This document shows, in pieces, positions 44,989 through 50,467 of a stretch of 64,000 bases of DNA. The notes beneath the pieces are model-generated. The model was not told the DNA's origin and searched no databases. It worked only from the letters and a program-made list of their open reading frames with translations. A program made the translations under genes and the position numbers. Position 1 is the first letter of the stretch. Each line of letters opens with the position of its first letter. This DNA comes from Sneathiella glossodoripedis JCM 23214 (GTDB taxonomy: Bacteria; Pseudomonadota; Alphaproteobacteria; Sneathiellales; Sneathiellaceae), in NCBI RefSeq assembly GCF_000616095.1, contig NZ_BAMS01000001.1:744001-808000 (forward strand), read 5' to 3'.

Positions 44989-45043
44989 ATTTACATGAAT
45001 GAAAAGTGCTATGCTGGTGTAAAGACAATCGAAAGTGGTAATC

Positions 45044-45817
45044 ATGTCTTTAACCTGTGTCAAACGTTGGATGATTGGTGCTGCTGTGCTGTGCCAGATC
45101 GTTTTTGCGCTTCAGCCCTTGGATGCTTACGCCAATGACTGCGTAGAAATGCGTGCTTCGGGCCCGCCTGTTTGGCCGCCCTATGTTATCCCGGGCAAGG
45201 ATAGTAAGTTGCGGCACGGAATTGCTTTTGATTTGGCCAAAAACATATTTTCTGGCCTCAACGTTAAATTTGTACAGGACGCTCCCAAGCCATGGCGCCG
45301 CGTTGTCAGGGAATTGAAAAATGGGGATATCGATTTTGTAGTTGCGATTTTGGATGATGCTGAGCGGCGTGAGCATTTCGAATACTCCATCCCGTGGACG
45401 TTTGACACCTACGCGGTCATTAAACTGCGGGGCGGTGACTGGGATTACAGTTCTGTAGAAAGTCTAAAAGGGCGCCTTGGTGCGTATTATTCTGGGATCA
45501 GATTACCCCCTCCGTTGAACAAGATTATGACCGATGGATATAAAGTTGCATCGGTATCAATCGTCCGTAACCTGTACCGCATTTTATTGGAACGGCGTGT
45601 TGATTATCTGGTGGTGTCGGTGAAGTCTTTTTTTGAACTGATGCCCGACATTTACGAGAGAGAGGAGTTCCAGATCTTGGAAAAATCCTCAGTTCATTTG
45701 CCAATACATATGGCTTTTTCCCTAAAATCGAAATGCCGAAAATATCTAAACAGTTTGAATGCGGCGCTGCGAGACTATCGAGCGAAAACAGGGGTTGGGC
45801 GCGACCAGGTAAATTAA
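45044..45817 (+). CDS. Orphan periplasmic solute-binding protein (SBP family 3)
   Basis: About 257 residues with a signal peptide (WMIGAAVLCQIVFALQPLDAYA) and an amino-acid-type binding fold (RHGIAFDLAKNIFSGLNVKFVQ; RRVVRELKNGDIDFVVAILDDAERREHFEYS). I start at ATG 45044. No permease is linked. It is similar in kind to the protein at 15205, so this genome has several stand-alone binding proteins. It borders the variable patch to its right. Confidence 0.78.
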   Translation: MSLTCVKRWMIGAAVLCQIVFALQPLDAYANDCVEMRASGPPVWPPYVIPGKDSKLRHGIAFDLAKNIFSGLNVKFVQDAPKPWRRVVRELKNGDIDFVVAILDDAERREHFEYSIPWTFDTYAVIKLRGGDWDYSSVESLKGRLGAYYSGIRLPPPLNKIMTDGYKVASVSIVRNLYRILLERRVDYLVVSVKSFFELMPDIYEREEFQILEKSSVHLPIHMAFSLKSKCRKYLNSLNAALRDYRAKTGVGRDQVN

Positions 45818-45862
45818 ATTCACGAGTGAAAAGGAAATATTGCTCCGATAACTGGGCGTTGG

Positions 45863-45994
45863 ATGGATGCAATGATTACACCGATTTACCCGGCTCTAGT
45901 GGCTATCTTGATGGTGATAATGTCAACCTTGATTGCCATTGCACGTCGGCGCAATCTCGTTTCAATAGGAGATTCGCACCGAGTAACCAGATAA
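45863..45994 (+). pseudogene. Truncated, decayed MAPEG-family gene
   Basis: A 43-codon frame gives MITPIYPALVAILMVIMSTL followed by IAIARRRNLVSIGD, the N-terminal helix and loop of a MAPEG (glutathione/eicosanoid-type membrane) protein of about 130 residues. It stops where the family continues with an Arg-rich, Phe-containing second segment. In another frame just downstream, IREQFSKFSII (about 45990-46022) resembles that next segment. The remaining ~90 residues are not found before 46166. I read it as a gene remnant. Confidence 0.5.
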
Positions 45995-46142
45995 GAGAAC
46001 AGTTTAGCAAATTTTCAATAATTAGGTGATATATTGTAACTTAATAATGTAAAAATATCTCATAACATCGAATTATGTAGATAATGTCCGGCCTGATAAC
46101 TATTCTTATATTAGAGAGCCCCGAATTTTCTAAAGGAGAAGA

Positions 46143-46160
46143 ATGTTTAATTTGGAGTAA
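46143..46160 (+). other. Five-codon minicistron before the 211-residue hypothetical gene
   Basis: AAAGGAG (46132-46138) is followed by ATG TTT AAT TTG GAG TAA. Its GGAG and stop lie just ahead of the next ATG at 46166. This could be a translational-coupling leader or coincidence. Confidence 0.25.
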
Positions 46161-46165
46161 GTGAA

Positions 46166-46801
46166 ATGAACTATATGAATGGTGAAAACCCTCCAGGGTC
46201 CTTAGCGAAGATCAATGATCGGAATTCACTTAGTCAATTAGTTGAAGCGAATTCCGAACCCATAACATTTTATAAGTTTTCGACTAGAATTAATGGACGG
46301 GAACAACTGCATGAAATTTCAGAGGATACAAACTTCATTATATGCAAAGATGAGGACACCCTAAGGGCTTACCTCAGATCAAAACGCCCGCCGCCCTTTT
46401 TGCACTTCCCATGTTATGCTCAATCAGCATTTTTAACGGAAACTCTACTATATTCAGGCCCCGATAGATCAGCCGCTCATCAAATATGCAGGCTGACAAA
46501 ATACATTGAAAGTCGGAAGAATTTTCAGTTGCCGGAGTTGGCGCGAAGCAGTTCAAATACGTTTTTGTTCAAAGGGTTTGGGTATTGGATCAGTGAAATC
46601 AATGATGACGTTGTTTCAGTCCGCAAACCAAACGGCTCTGAGTTTCAGAAATTTGAGCAGTTGGCGTCCGCATTTGTGGTCGTGTATGCTTTGTTTCTGG
46701 CGAGTTTTGATGGCGAACCAAGCGCTCGATTTGCCGAAGAGGATGTAACTGACCAATCTCGGTTCAATAGGCCTGTTAACAGAGATAATTTTTTAAATTA
46801 G
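46166..46801 (+). CDS. Hypothetical protein, unrecognised
   Basis: 211 residues with no signal peptide or membrane helix. Central stretches FIICKDEDTLRAYLRSKRPPPFLHFP and KYIESRKNFQLPELARSS suggest a folded cytosolic protein. Two Cys occur in FPCYAQS and HQICRLTKY. GGAG lies 9 nt before the ATG. The DNA here is more A/T-rich than the flanks, and the gene is convergent with the XRE regulator (23-bp gap). I recognise no family. Confidence 0.6.
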   Translation: MNYMNGENPPGSLAKINDRNSLSQLVEANSEPITFYKFSTRINGREQLHEISEDTNFIICKDEDTLRAYLRSKRPPPFLHFPCYAQSAFLTETLLYSGPDRSAAHQICRLTKYIESRKNFQLPELARSSSNTFLFKGFGYWISEINDDVVSVRKPNGSEFQKFEQLASAFVVVYALFLASFDGEPSARFAEEDVTDQSRFNRPVNRDNFLN

Positions 46802-46824
46802 GCTCCAAATTGGTGCTGAATGTC

Positions 46825-47181
46825 TCATTTACTCTCAAATCGTTTTGCTAATGATTTAGTGAGCACGACGAGTGCGGCTCGTTCTTCTTTTGGCAATTCG
46901 CGAAAGTCGGTTAATAGTTCATCGACTTCTGGTAAGTCCTTGTATTTATTCAGAACATTTGGCGGGAATAGTTGACTTGGACTAATCTGTAGGACCTTGC
47001 TAATTTCGTACAGGCGACCAACAGACAATTGCTGACGCCCATCTTCATATCTTTGAATCTGTTGAACGCTAAGATCAAGTTGTTTTGCAAGATATTCTTG
47101 GGTGAGTTTTTGTGCTTTTCTTATCTTTTTTATTGAAGATGCTATGTGAAGGTTAACTTCGTTAAGTTCTTTGCTATCCAT
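46825..47181 (-). CDS. XRE-family helix-turn-helix regulator
   Basis: 118 residues from ATG 47181, with GGGGAG 5 nt upstream. The DNA-binding domain covers residues 10-70 (IRKAQKLTQEYLAKQLDLSVQQIQRYEDGRQQLSVGRLYEISKVLQI). The C-terminal third is acidic then basic (LTDFRELPKEERAALVVLTKSLAKRF), probably for dimerisation. A structured leader of about 160 bp lies upstream (47252-47340). Targets are unknown. Confidence 0.88.
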   Translation of the reverse strand: MDSKELNEVNLHIASSIKKIRKAQKLTQEYLAKQLDLSVQQIQRYEDGRQQLSVGRLYEISKVLQISPSQLFPPNVLNKYKDLPEVDELLTDFRELPKEERAALVVLTKSLAKRFESK

Positions 47182-47630
47182 CAACACTCCCCTTCTAATT
47201 CAAGGCAATGTCGCCACAAAGTCTGCGGCTATGAATTTCAAAAAATAGGTTTGAAAAAAATCGACGCTTCATGCTCGGTATTGAGTATGAAGCCCTCTTA
47301 TTTGATTGAATGCAGGCCTGTGAATTGCTCCGCATTCAATTTGCAACTTCAAAATTTGGCAGTGCGCTCAAATTTGAGTAACGAAAGAACATATTATAAT
47401 GAAGAGCTAAATAATCAAGTATTAGAATGTATAAAATTTGTAATTTTTGTAACCAATGGTTGTAGATTAAGTATAGTTTAATACAAAAATGTTCTTTTTT
47501 GTATTTTTGTTAACAAAATAGGGAGAATTTACTCGAAAGAAAATGACGTGATAGTTAAGATGTAATAGTTAGTACAAAATAAAGTGATGTAGTTTCTGGA
47601 AAATAGTAAAAGACTTATGGCGGATAAGCG
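47182..47630. other. 449-bp gene-free A/T-rich interval
   Basis: Between the XRE gene (leftward) and the next rightward gene I see no convincing coding frame. It holds two hairpins near the XRE end and A/T-rich runs toward 47630. A promoter for each flanking gene is expected here, but none stands out clearly. Confidence 0.5.
47252..47340 (-). ncRNA. Tandem hairpins, candidate small RNA or leader ahead of the XRE gene
   Basis: Read on the minus strand, ATTGAATGC/GCATTCAAT (47332-47340 with 47305-47313, 18-nt loop) is followed by GCTTCATACTC/GAGCATGAAGC (47283-47293 with 47266-47276, 6-nt loop) and then T7 at 47254-47260. The second hairpin plus T run resembles an intrinsic terminator, but 5 nt separate stem and T run. 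It could be the end of a short RNA or an attenuator in the XRE leader. Confidence 0.3.
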
Positions 47631-48167
47631 ATGTCTGACGACGGCGAAAGCGATGGTGGGGGAGGGTATTTTCAAATTCGTCCAATCGGGATTACCGGCT
47701 TTTTCTTCGATTTGGCAAGGTTTGAAATTCTTCACCGGCCAGATTTGCTGCCTTTTTCTGACCCACTCTTGATTAAAGTCATCGAAAAAATTGCTCCAAT
47801 ACACCATCGAAATAATGTTGATATATTTTCGAGGCCTTACGTCACCGGGATTTTGACAATGGCACGGGATGTTTCGATTTGGACACATGAGCAAATAGAT
47901 GATTCATCTGCGCAATTGATCCCTGTTGGCGAAACGGGGTTTTCAATTCTAAAACGCCGACCCTGTGAAGATGAAAAAGACCCATATAATCTCGTCGAGT
48001 TGGTCAACGATAGTGTTCTCAACGATTTGGAAGATGTCTATTGGGTGATTGCGTTGGGAAAATTATTGAGATCCCATTACATTGAAGGCGTCGATATATT
48101 TGATAATTTATATCAAAATGCCCTAATGTATCGATTGGGTGATGCAGAAAAAAATGAAATCAACTGA
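47631..48167 (+). CDS. Hypothetical protein, unrecognised
   Basis: 178 residues with an acidic, Gly-rich start (MSDDGESDGGGG), then FDLARFEILHRPDLLPFSDPLLIKVIEKIAP and a mixed alpha/beta middle (GILTMARDVSIWTHEQID; IPVGETGFSILKRRP). The C-terminal half is helical and acidic (DLEDVYWVIALGKLLRSHYIEGVDIFDNL). No signal or membrane segment. GGCGGATAAG sits just before the ATG. I recognise no family. It belongs to the same accessory patch as the 46166 gene. Confidence 0.55.
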   Translation: MSDDGESDGGGGYFQIRPIGITGFFFDLARFEILHRPDLLPFSDPLLIKVIEKIAPIHHRNNVDIFSRPYVTGILTMARDVSIWTHEQIDDSSAQLIPVGETGFSILKRRPCEDEKDPYNLVELVNDSVLNDLEDVYWVIALGKLLRSHYIEGVDIFDNLYQNALMYRLGDAEKNEIN

Positions 48168-48231
48168 AAGTAAAGTGTTGAAACATATAGTTTATTTTTC
48201 TCTTGCATTATTTATTAAAATAATCTAATTG

Positions 48232-48241
48232 ACCGTTCGGT
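48232..48241. promoter_or_regulatory. TetR-type operator-like palindrome
   Basis: ACCG-TT-CGGT, in the context TTGACCGTTCGGTT, resembles sites of TetR-family acyl-CoA and drug regulators. TTGGTTTCAA (48241-48250) and TTGAAACCAA (48300-48309) form a further inverted repeat. No sizeable rightward gene follows before 50714, so the target is unclear. Confidence 0.3.
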
Positions 48242-48375
48242 TGGTTTCAATTTGAAGGGTATGTTGAACAGTAAACGGCTTGTTCTCGCCCGTATATAGT
48301 TGAAACCAAAACGGCTTACTTTGAATTTTACGATGAGTGAGCTCGTAAACGCCTAAGTGCTGTAGGCTTGACCTG

Positions 48376-48426
48376 GAAGAGGAGAGATTATCTGTACCCC
48401 TCCCCCAAGTGATGTCTCTCCTCTTC
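48376..48426. terminator. Perfect 12-bp inverted repeat downstream of ecm
   Basis: GAAGAGGAGAGA and TCTCTCCTCTTC pair perfectly across a 27-nt loop. It lies 26 bp past the ecm stop, and a T-rich TTTCTTC follows on the plus strand. It may end ecm transcription or a rightward transcript from 48.2 kb. Confidence 0.5.
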
Positions 48427-48451
48427 TTTCTTCGGTAGTAACCGTTAAACC

Positions 48452-50467
48452 TCAGGCCGGTTCGCTTTCCTGATCCAGGACGATATCAACCATGTCCGAC
48501 ATAATATCCTCCATTTTAAAATCTTTAGGAGTATAGACCGCTTTAACTCCGCTGCGTTTGAGAGCTGTAGCGTCTTCGGGTGGGATGATGCCGCCGACCA
48601 CGACCGGAATCTTGTCAAGATTTGCCGCTTTCAACCGTTTGACAACATCCGTTGCCAGCGACAGATGTGAACCTGATAGGATGGAAAGCCCGATCATATG
48701 AACTTTTCCTTCCTTTGCGGATGTGACGATCTGCTCTGGTGTCAGTCTGATCCCTTCATAAACAACCTCCATCCCGCAATCCCTTGCAGAAACGGCAATT
48801 TGTTCTGCTCCATTTGAATGGCCATCAAGGCCCGGTTTACCAACCAGTACTTTGACAGGGCGACCCAGTCGTTTGGCGGCATTGGCAACTTTATCTCGCA
48901 ATTCTTCGCTGGCAGCGGGGTTGTTGGACGGGGCGGCGCTTACTCCTGTGGGGGCTCGGTACTCTCCATAAACGGAGCGCAAAGCTTGTGACCACTCGCC
49001 GGTTGTGACCCCAGCTTTTGCGGCTTCAATGGAAGCTGGCATGATATTTTGTCCGGATGTGGCGGCATTCTTCAGTGCTTTAAGGGCTGCCGCTACTTTC
49101 TTTTCATCTCGTTGGGCGCGCCATGCATTCAAGCGTTCGATCTGTTCGGCTTCAGCTTTTGGGTCGACCGTCATAATGCCGCCATCGCCAGCCTGCGTTA
49201 GCGGTGAAGGAGTGGATTCGGTGAATTTATTCACGCCCACAACGGTAATGTCGCCTGAAATGACAGATTGGACGCGGTTGGTATTTGACTGTACCAACGC
49301 TTCTTTCAAATAGCCGCTCTCTACGGCGGCTACTGCGCCTCCCATTTTTTCAATAAGCGCCAATTCTTCCCGTGCGGCCTGTTTTAGCTCCTCCACCTTT
49401 CTGTCAATTTCAACGGATCCATCGAATATATCGCCATATTCCAATAAATCGGTCTCGAATGCGACAATTTGCTGAAGTCGCAAGGACCATTGCTGGTCCC
49501 AAGGGCGCGGTAGACCTAGCGCCTCATTCCAGGCGGGTAATTGTACAGCACGTGCGCGTGCCTTTTTGGATAAAGTTACCGCCAGCATTTCCAGCAGGAT
49601 ACGATAAACGTTGTTTTCTGGTTGCTGTTCTGTCAGGCCGAGTGAGTTGACCTGTACGCCATAGCGAAAGCGGCGGAATTTTTCGTTTTCGACTTTATAT
49701 CGCTCCAGAAGGATCTCATCCCACAAGTCCACGAATGCTCGCATCTTGCACATTTCGGTGATAAAGCGAATTCCGGCATTGACGAAAAAGCTGATTCGGC
49801 CGGTTGCCGCTGGAAAATCCTCGGCACTGATTTGACCGGAATCCCGCACGGCATCCAGAACCGCAATCGCTGTGGCCAGTGCGAATGAAAGTTCCTGAAC
49901 CGGCGTGGCCCCAGCTTCTTGCAAATGGTAGGAGCAGACGTTGGTTGGATTCCACTTGGGAACTTCCTTGTATGTGAAGCTGACGACATCTGTAATCAGC
50001 TTCATGCTGGGGGCTGGCGGGAAGATATATGTTCCACGGGACAAATATTCTTTAATGATGTCGTTTTGTACTGTTCCTTGCAGGGATTTTCTGTCAGCAC
50101 CCTGTTCCTCCGCCACAGCGATATAGAGCGCCAGTAGCCACGCCGAAGTCGCGTTGATCGTCATGGAGGTGTTCATTTTCTCCAGCGGGATTTGATCAAA
50201 AAGGGTCCGCATATCCCCCAAGTGGCAGATCGGAACACCGACTTTGCCGACTTCTCCGCGAGCAAGTACATGATCCGAATCGTACCCGGTTTGAGTTGGT
50301 AAATCAAAAGCAACAGAAAGACCGGTTTGACCTTTTCCCAAATTGGTTCTGTAGAGCTCGTTTGATGCTTGAGCAGAGGAATGACCCGAGTAGGTTCGAA
50401 ATAGCCAGGGGCGGTCCTTTTTGACTTCAGATGCAGGTTTTTCAGTGTTTTCGCTCATCTTGCTCAT
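48452..50467 (-). CDS. ecm: Ethylmalonyl-CoA mutase (MeaA type)
   Basis: AdoCbl-dependent isomerisation of ethylmalonyl-CoA to methylsuccinyl-CoA. Of 671 residues, the catalytic barrel has RPWLFRTYSGHSSAQASNELY, SVAFDLPTQTGYDSDH and NVCSYHLQEAGATP, the Ecm/MeaA signatures rather than MCM. The C-terminal B12 domain has the His ligand in GKPGLDGHSNGAEQI, then LSILSGSH and VVGGIIP. It is divergent from ccr with a shared 246-bp promoter region, tying it to the ethylmalonyl-CoA pathway. Confidence 0.94.
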   Translation of the reverse strand: MSKMSENTEKPASEVKKDRPWLFRTYSGHSSAQASNELYRTNLGKGQTGLSVAFDLPTQTGYDSDHVLARGEVGKVGVPICHLGDMRTLFDQIPLEKMNTSMTINATSAWLLALYIAVAEEQGADRKSLQGTVQNDIIKEYLSRGTYIFPPAPSMKLITDVVSFTYKEVPKWNPTNVCSYHLQEAGATPVQELSFALATAIAVLDAVRDSGQISAEDFPAATGRISFFVNAGIRFITEMCKMRAFVDLWDEILLERYKVENEKFRRFRYGVQVNSLGLTEQQPENNVYRILLEMLAVTLSKKARARAVQLPAWNEALGLPRPWDQQWSLRLQQIVAFETDLLEYGDIFDGSVEIDRKVEELKQAAREELALIEKMGGAVAAVESGYLKEALVQSNTNRVQSVISGDITVVGVNKFTESTPSPLTQAGDGGIMTVDPKAEAEQIERLNAWRAQRDEKKVAAALKALKNAATSGQNIMPASIEAAKAGVTTGEWSQALRSVYGEYRAPTGVSAAPSNNPAASEELRDKVANAAKRLGRPVKVLVGKPGLDGHSNGAEQIAVSARDCGMEVVYEGIRLTPEQIVTSAKEGKVHMIGLSILSGSHLSLATDVVKRLKAANLDKIPVVVGGIIPPEDATALKRSGVKAVYTPKDFKMEDIMSDMVDIVLDQESEPA

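Follow-up and report, generated by a model that had tools for sequence, protein, structure and literature searches.

A low-GC insert with two ORFans and an XRE regulator probably replaced most of a MAPEG gene between gluQ and ecm in Sneathiella glossodoripedis

Between gluQ and ecm in the 64,000-nucleotide stretch of Sneathiella glossodoripedis JCM 23214 analysed here (contig NZ_BAMS01000001.1; hereafter the window) lies a patch in which the first-pass annotation had listed a decayed MAPEG gene, a 211-residue and a 178-residue protein that it could not place, and a regulator of the XRE family. Reading both strands of 45818-48451, we found all four items, in the order MAPEG stub, 211-aa open reading frame (ORF), XRE gene, a 443-bp gap, 178-aa ORF and a 284-bp gap, followed by ecm. 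The stub comprises 43 codons on the forward strand (45863-45994). The 211-aa ORF (46166-46801) and the 178-aa ORF (47631-48167) are also on the forward strand; both are called from ORF length and codon use, and both are ORFans, that is, ORFs for which we found no relatives. The xre gene, encoding a protein of 120 aa with an HTH_3 domain, lies on the reverse strand (46825-47187), divergent from the 178-aa ORF. The left flank is an SBP_bac_3-like gene (45035-45817, forward strand; Pfam, 39.4 bits) and the right flank is ecm (48452-50467, reverse strand), which is placed by synteny and goes under the provisional name given in the first-pass annotation. On the basis of GC content and synteny we delimit an insert at 45974-48440, with approximate limits; computations on the insert were run on 45979-48440 (about 2.46 kb).

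The reading of a decayed MAPEG gene was borne out. A profile built from five intact MAPEG proteins of genomes of the genus matched the stub at positions 3-39 of 131 only (37 positions; independent E-value 5.7e-10). The homology stops cleanly at a conserved Gly-Asp (45973), the 39 codons of the homologous part contain no stop codon, and the genus profile detected no later part of MAPEG in the six frames of 45818-48470. The stub corresponds to residues 1-39 of about 131; it resembles the start of the intact MAPEG proteins of the genus but differs from the family (PF01124) in that about 70% of the protein is gone. Used alone, the Pfam model gave the stub 15.4 bits against a cut-off of 23.4 (E 0.021), and the stub does not count as a full-length MAPEG. 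Judged by its homology, it is a true gene remnant. No MAPEG over the Pfam cut-off was found elsewhere in the same genome. At least one such gene is present in 19 of the 24 genus genomes, this one counted among the 24; the five without are this genome, G011, G004, G012 and G016.

The composition of the insert is atypical. Its GC content is 38.3% (45979-48440) compared with 46.9% for the window, and the three lowest-GC of 616 segments of 2462 bp begin at 45801-46001. No second copy of the stretch was found in the same genome at E 0.001. We then compared the surroundings of gluQ in the 23 other genomes of the genus, some of them incomplete (down to 56%); the site is spanned in 22, and in G016 the contig ends. 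In 17 of the 23, gluQ lies directly beside ecm, with 48-130 bp between the matched ends. The order gluQ-MAPEG-ecm is found in four (G018, G007, G023 and G014) and gluQ-SBP-MAPEG-ecm in a single one, the sister genome G005, so that an intact MAPEG gene stands just 3' of gluQ or SBP in five genomes. The 211-aa, XRE and 178-aa proteins had no match at E 0.001 in the gluQ stretches of the 23 genomes, and the insert is absent at all 22 spanned sites. The earlier suggestion of an insertion within an accessory patch is supported by this pattern, and the alternative that the four genes are conserved in order across the family was not seen. Compared with the other genomes of the genus, none of which is a further strain of the same species, the insert is lineage-specific at a site that is intact, with its MAPEG gene, in the sister G005. 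The SBP-like gene, at this site common to G005 only, was itself gained here: it is 57% identical in G005 and has no match at the other 22 loci. In G016 (L051, 2240-4093), the 1.9 kb past gluQ hold what reads as a hybrid histidine kinase-like gene before the contig ends without ecm; judging from this genome, DNA may have entered between gluQ and ecm more than once.

FastTree was run on gluQ, ecm and ccr of 19 genomes. In the resulting tree the window and G005 form a pair (support 1.00), and the window, G005 and the four MAPEG carriers form one group (support 0.886); the node joining G018 and G007 to G005 and the window has a support of only 0.643. The simplest history would begin with the gain of MAPEG in the ancestor of this group, followed by the gain of SBP in the common ancestor of G005 and the window's lineage, and would end with the gain of the insert in the window's lineage and the loss of the 3' part of MAPEG. 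Because none of the other genus genomes carries the insert, its most likely time of origin is later than the divergence from G005, and about 70% of MAPEG was replaced. On this reading the site gives an ordered history, from gluQ-ecm through the addition of MAPEG and then SBP to an islet of ORFans at the expense of most of the MAPEG gene, and since the sister site is intact, the gluQ-ecm gap is a clean place for studying the entry of small ORFan inserts. The first-pass annotation had favoured an old insertion or a relaxed region over a fresh island. That view is weakened by the intact MAPEG of the sister, a GC content 8-9 points below that of the window and a stub of 39 codons without a stop; at the same time GluQ is 77% identical between the two genomes, too distant a pair for the insert to be called fresh in absolute time.

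Length and codon use favour both ORFans as real genes. An ORF of at least 211 aa arose in none of 2000 dinucleotide shuffles of the insert, and one of at least 178 aa in seven of 2000. We also scored codon use, taking 46 further long ORFs of the window as the training set and expressing the scores as z against base shuffles: the 211-aa ORF reached 3.1, xre 3.6 and the 178-aa ORF 4.3; among the controls, SBP (outside the training set) scored 4.6, gluQ (inside it) 8.0 and three shadow ORFs -0.2 to 0.1. A GGAG lies eight bases 5' of the ATG of the 211-aa ORF. The two proteins were as hard to place as had been stated, with no family over its cut-off in Pfam, NCBIfam, PHROGs or PADLOC: neither had a match at E 1 in Pfam, PHROGs or PADLOC, the 211-aa protein had one NCBIfam match far below its cut-off (E 0.14), and no toxin or defence family was matched, with PADLOC read up to E 1 and NCBIfam at its cut-offs. 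Compared with each other, the two are unrelated. Alignment-free structure prediction gave a mean predicted local distance difference test score (pLDDT) of 35 for both, too low for usable models, and a search of PDB sequences gave nothing below E 0.49.

Searches for relatives were equally empty. Apart from the genome itself, none were found in 60 related genomes (including the 23 of the genus) or in 398 genomes of the phylum, sets that overlap in part, and none in phage and plasmid collections (tblastn, E 0.1). Pattern matches in viral contigs (7 and 11 stretches for the 211-aa and 178-aa proteins) and in GTDB genome contigs (74 and 75 stretches, in a search that reaches close relatives only) yielded no confirmed relative. 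Among 385 genomes of the class there was one weak match per orphan, and we take both to be chance. For the 211-aa protein the match is L070 (E 1.9e-4), which extends from what reads as an oxidoreductase-like gene past its stop codon into the spacer that follows; for the 178-aa protein it is L071 (E 0.0025), 45 residues within what reads as a thiamine-phosphate-synthase-like gene.

By its profile matches, the XRE protein is an ordinary member of its family. It belongs to HTH_3 (PF01381) with 54.5 bits against a Pfam cut-off of 23, sharing the helix-turn-helix (HTH) domain of the XRE or Cro-CI regulators, but it differs from named groups in that its 20 NCBIfam matches all fall below their respective cut-offs and assign it to no named subfamily. 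It matches restriction-control profiles of PADLOC (HTH_VI, E 2.3e-10; Control_protein, E 3.3e-10), as is expected of a generic XRE protein, as well as repressor-like PHROGs (best E 4.9e-12). Relatives occur in 327 plasmid records, 81 of them with at least 80% query coverage and the best rows at 34% identity, and in 65 phage records, 23 with at least 80% coverage and 32 of the 65 named Caulobacter; the best plasmid and phage rows have about 32-34% identity over 88-95% of the length, and the top phage rows as a group about 28-33% over almost the full length. Three viral contigs (L072-L074) also hold relatives. Of two neighbourhoods that we read, the one on a plasmid contained transposase fragments and the one in a phage hypothetical genes.

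Contrary to the earlier description, the patch is not free of repeats: where MAPEG breaks off there is a direct repeat of 18 bp. Copy 1 (45952-45969, forward strand) consists of native MAPEG codons where the homology ends, and it recurs 802 bp away with 17 of 18 positions identical as copy 2 (46754-46771), within the 3' end of the 211-aa ORF, among its last codons. In 300 dinucleotide shuffles of the insert compared with the MAPEG end, the best match was 15 of 18, reached in nine. Only the two copies fit with fewer than three mismatches in the genome, eight other places fit with three, and a reversed control pattern fitted four. Beyond the repeat, the sequences 3' of each copy show no clear resemblance (58 of 1000 shuffles score equally well). 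We looked for remains of a MAPEG tail 3' of copy 2 and detected none, as 142 of 1000 shuffles score equally well and the profile has no match there. An integron attC site was likewise dismissed, since the GTTAAC beside copy 2 appears to depart from the core-site consensus.

An insertion that duplicated 18 bp of its target would give such a repeat, but the rest of MAPEG would then be expected behind copy 2, where none was found. The insert could instead have been assembled in two steps: the entry of a 0.8-kb unit with the 211-aa gene into MAPEG, duplicating 18 bp, and then another event that brought xre and the 178-aa gene and removed the 3' part of MAPEG. Alternatively, the repeat may be the scar of another type of recombination, and we make no choice between the two. 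Homology-facilitated illegitimate recombination (PMC3240628), by which foreign DNA can be taken into the chromosome although just one of its ends is homologous, would not by itself leave an 18-bp repeat flanking the 211-aa gene. It is very unlikely that the 802-bp repeat-bounded unit is a minimal mobile cassette, moved by site-specific recombination in trans with an 18-bp duplication, such that a single ORFan takes its C-terminus from target-like codons of a protein-coding target. Were this unit, the only odd element of the islet, indeed mobile, it would be a new type of cassette, which present evidence makes improbable.

We think it probable that 45974-48440 is a small horizontally acquired islet of two ORFans and an XRE repressor that replaced the last 70% of MAPEG after the split from the sister, and we infer a phage or plasmid as its source. 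It is favoured by what the data show directly, namely confinement to the window's lineage, a truncated MAPEG, low GC, ORFs that look coding and an 18-bp repeat at the point of truncation, and further by the XRE relatives in plasmid and phage records. Several observations weigh against this. Foreign origin is argued from composition and from presence and absence; no donor or homologous element of either ORFan was found in the collections searched (metagenomes lay outside their scope), and no integrase, transposase or phage gene was recognised in the insert. XRE proteins like this one are widespread on chromosomes, with HTH matches in all 24 genomes of the genus, and the gene is thus no proof of a mobile source. 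In raw form, the codon scores are -0.037 for the 211-aa ORF and -0.059 for xre, below those of all 46 training ORFs (lowest 0.02), which fits foreign genes and equally doubtful ORFs. Promoter-like sites (6 versus 8.2 in shuffles) and terminator-like sites (3 versus 3.5) are not in excess, and the MAPEG sequence that a two-step assembly predicts after copy 2 was not found by profile. These low codon scores, the lack of a donor for any part of the insert and the abundance of XRE genes in the genus would also suit decay in place, in which, without any entry of foreign DNA, MAPEG was cut short, the gap grew and its GC content fell by drift, the ORFs are spurious or newborn and a host XRE gene was displaced. 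We nevertheless regard such decay as unlikely, given that the gluQ/SBP-MAPEG-ecm sites of relatives have no 2.4 kb of spare DNA, that MAPEG is cut cleanly and that the two ORFs exceed shuffles in length (0 and 7 of 2000) and in codon use (z 3.1 and 4.3).

The repeat, whose first copy is part of MAPEG itself where the gene is cut off, could also be the attachment site of a single prophage or integrative element that has lost its integrase, with xre as the old immunity repressor, a role for which its matches to repressor-like PHROGs and to phage records and its divergent layout are suitable. This too seems improbable to us, as no further MAPEG sequence was found behind copy 2, the repeat pair encloses neither xre nor the 178-aa gene and the window's single tRNA gene is 8 kb off. 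Nor does the gene content point to a prophage: no integrase or phage structural gene was recognised, neither orphan has a Pfam or PHROGs match and no other ORF in the insert exceeds 121 aa. A small XRE gene beside an orphan further resembles a toxin-antitoxin or defence module, and xre with either the 178-aa or the 211-aa gene might be one of an undescribed family, the XRE protein acting as antitoxin or control protein. Its match to Control_protein and to antitoxin-like profiles (in NCBIfam all below cut-off) points the same way, but generic XRE proteins match such profiles anyway. Genes for antitoxin and toxin usually form a tight operon, unlike the divergent layout and 443-bp gap seen here, and no toxin or defence profile matches either orphan, which leaves this explanation with little probability.

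The islet reading does not call for a novel class of element; an islet of this sort is a known kind of thing, and such inserts are common. In Cortez, Forterre and Gribaldo (2009, PMC2718499), lineage-specific clusters of short, atypical ORFans are considered likely remnants of integrative elements, and clusters of two to six genes possible remnants of older or fragmented ones. As in the clusters described there, the genes of the insert are short, compositionally atypical, without relatives and lineage-specific; unlike them, the insert contains, apart from an XRE gene of generic type, nothing of plasmid or viral character, and no source was found. We regard the insert as another islet of this kind.

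The first-pass annotation had also described the gaps as large and structured. This holds for the gap between xre and the 178-aa gene (47188-47630, z -2.85) and for the 284-bp gap (48168-48451, z -4.0), both of which fold better than shuffles, and not for the first gap (45979-46165, z +0.38). Within the xre/178 gap lie a terminator-like hairpin of 12 bp (47266-47293, forward strand; z -4.42 for 47255-47310) and an inverted repeat with 10-bp arms (47480-47505), longer than the arms in all 200 base shuffles, which is a candidate XRE operator. Proteins of the XRE family in general bind inverted repeats in a shared gap and repress in both directions. By analogy, the XRE protein would repress its own promoter and the divergent 178-aa gene through inverted repeats in the 443-bp gap. 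Control of the 178-aa gene is plausible; the full circuit, in which XRE represses both itself and the 178-aa gene, we put forward tentatively, at slightly less than an even chance. The 211-aa gene runs toward xre from a start region of its own, the hairpin at 47266 could terminate its transcript, and its membership of the regulon is possible either way. We infer all of these regulatory steps at the locus.

Other features of the gaps are minor. A long hairpin at 47419-47484 is unremarkable (z -1.36 for 47415-47520), and an Rfam match to PyrG_leader at 47233-47304 is taken as chance (30.5 bits, gathering score 65, E 0.21). The sequence TGTTAACA occurs twice in the window, both times inside the insert; it was noticed post hoc and no claim is built on it. 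The last gap (48168-48440) gave only short matches, E 0.019 or more, in the rest of the genus. It contains an imperfect hairpin of 82 nt with CCGTT/AACGG ends (48233-48314, forward strand; z -2.93), which is shaped like a miniature inverted-repeat transposable element and for which no similar copy was found in the genus, and a terminator-like hairpin (48375-48427, forward strand; z -3.76 for 48375-48435) that precedes the 3' end of ecm.

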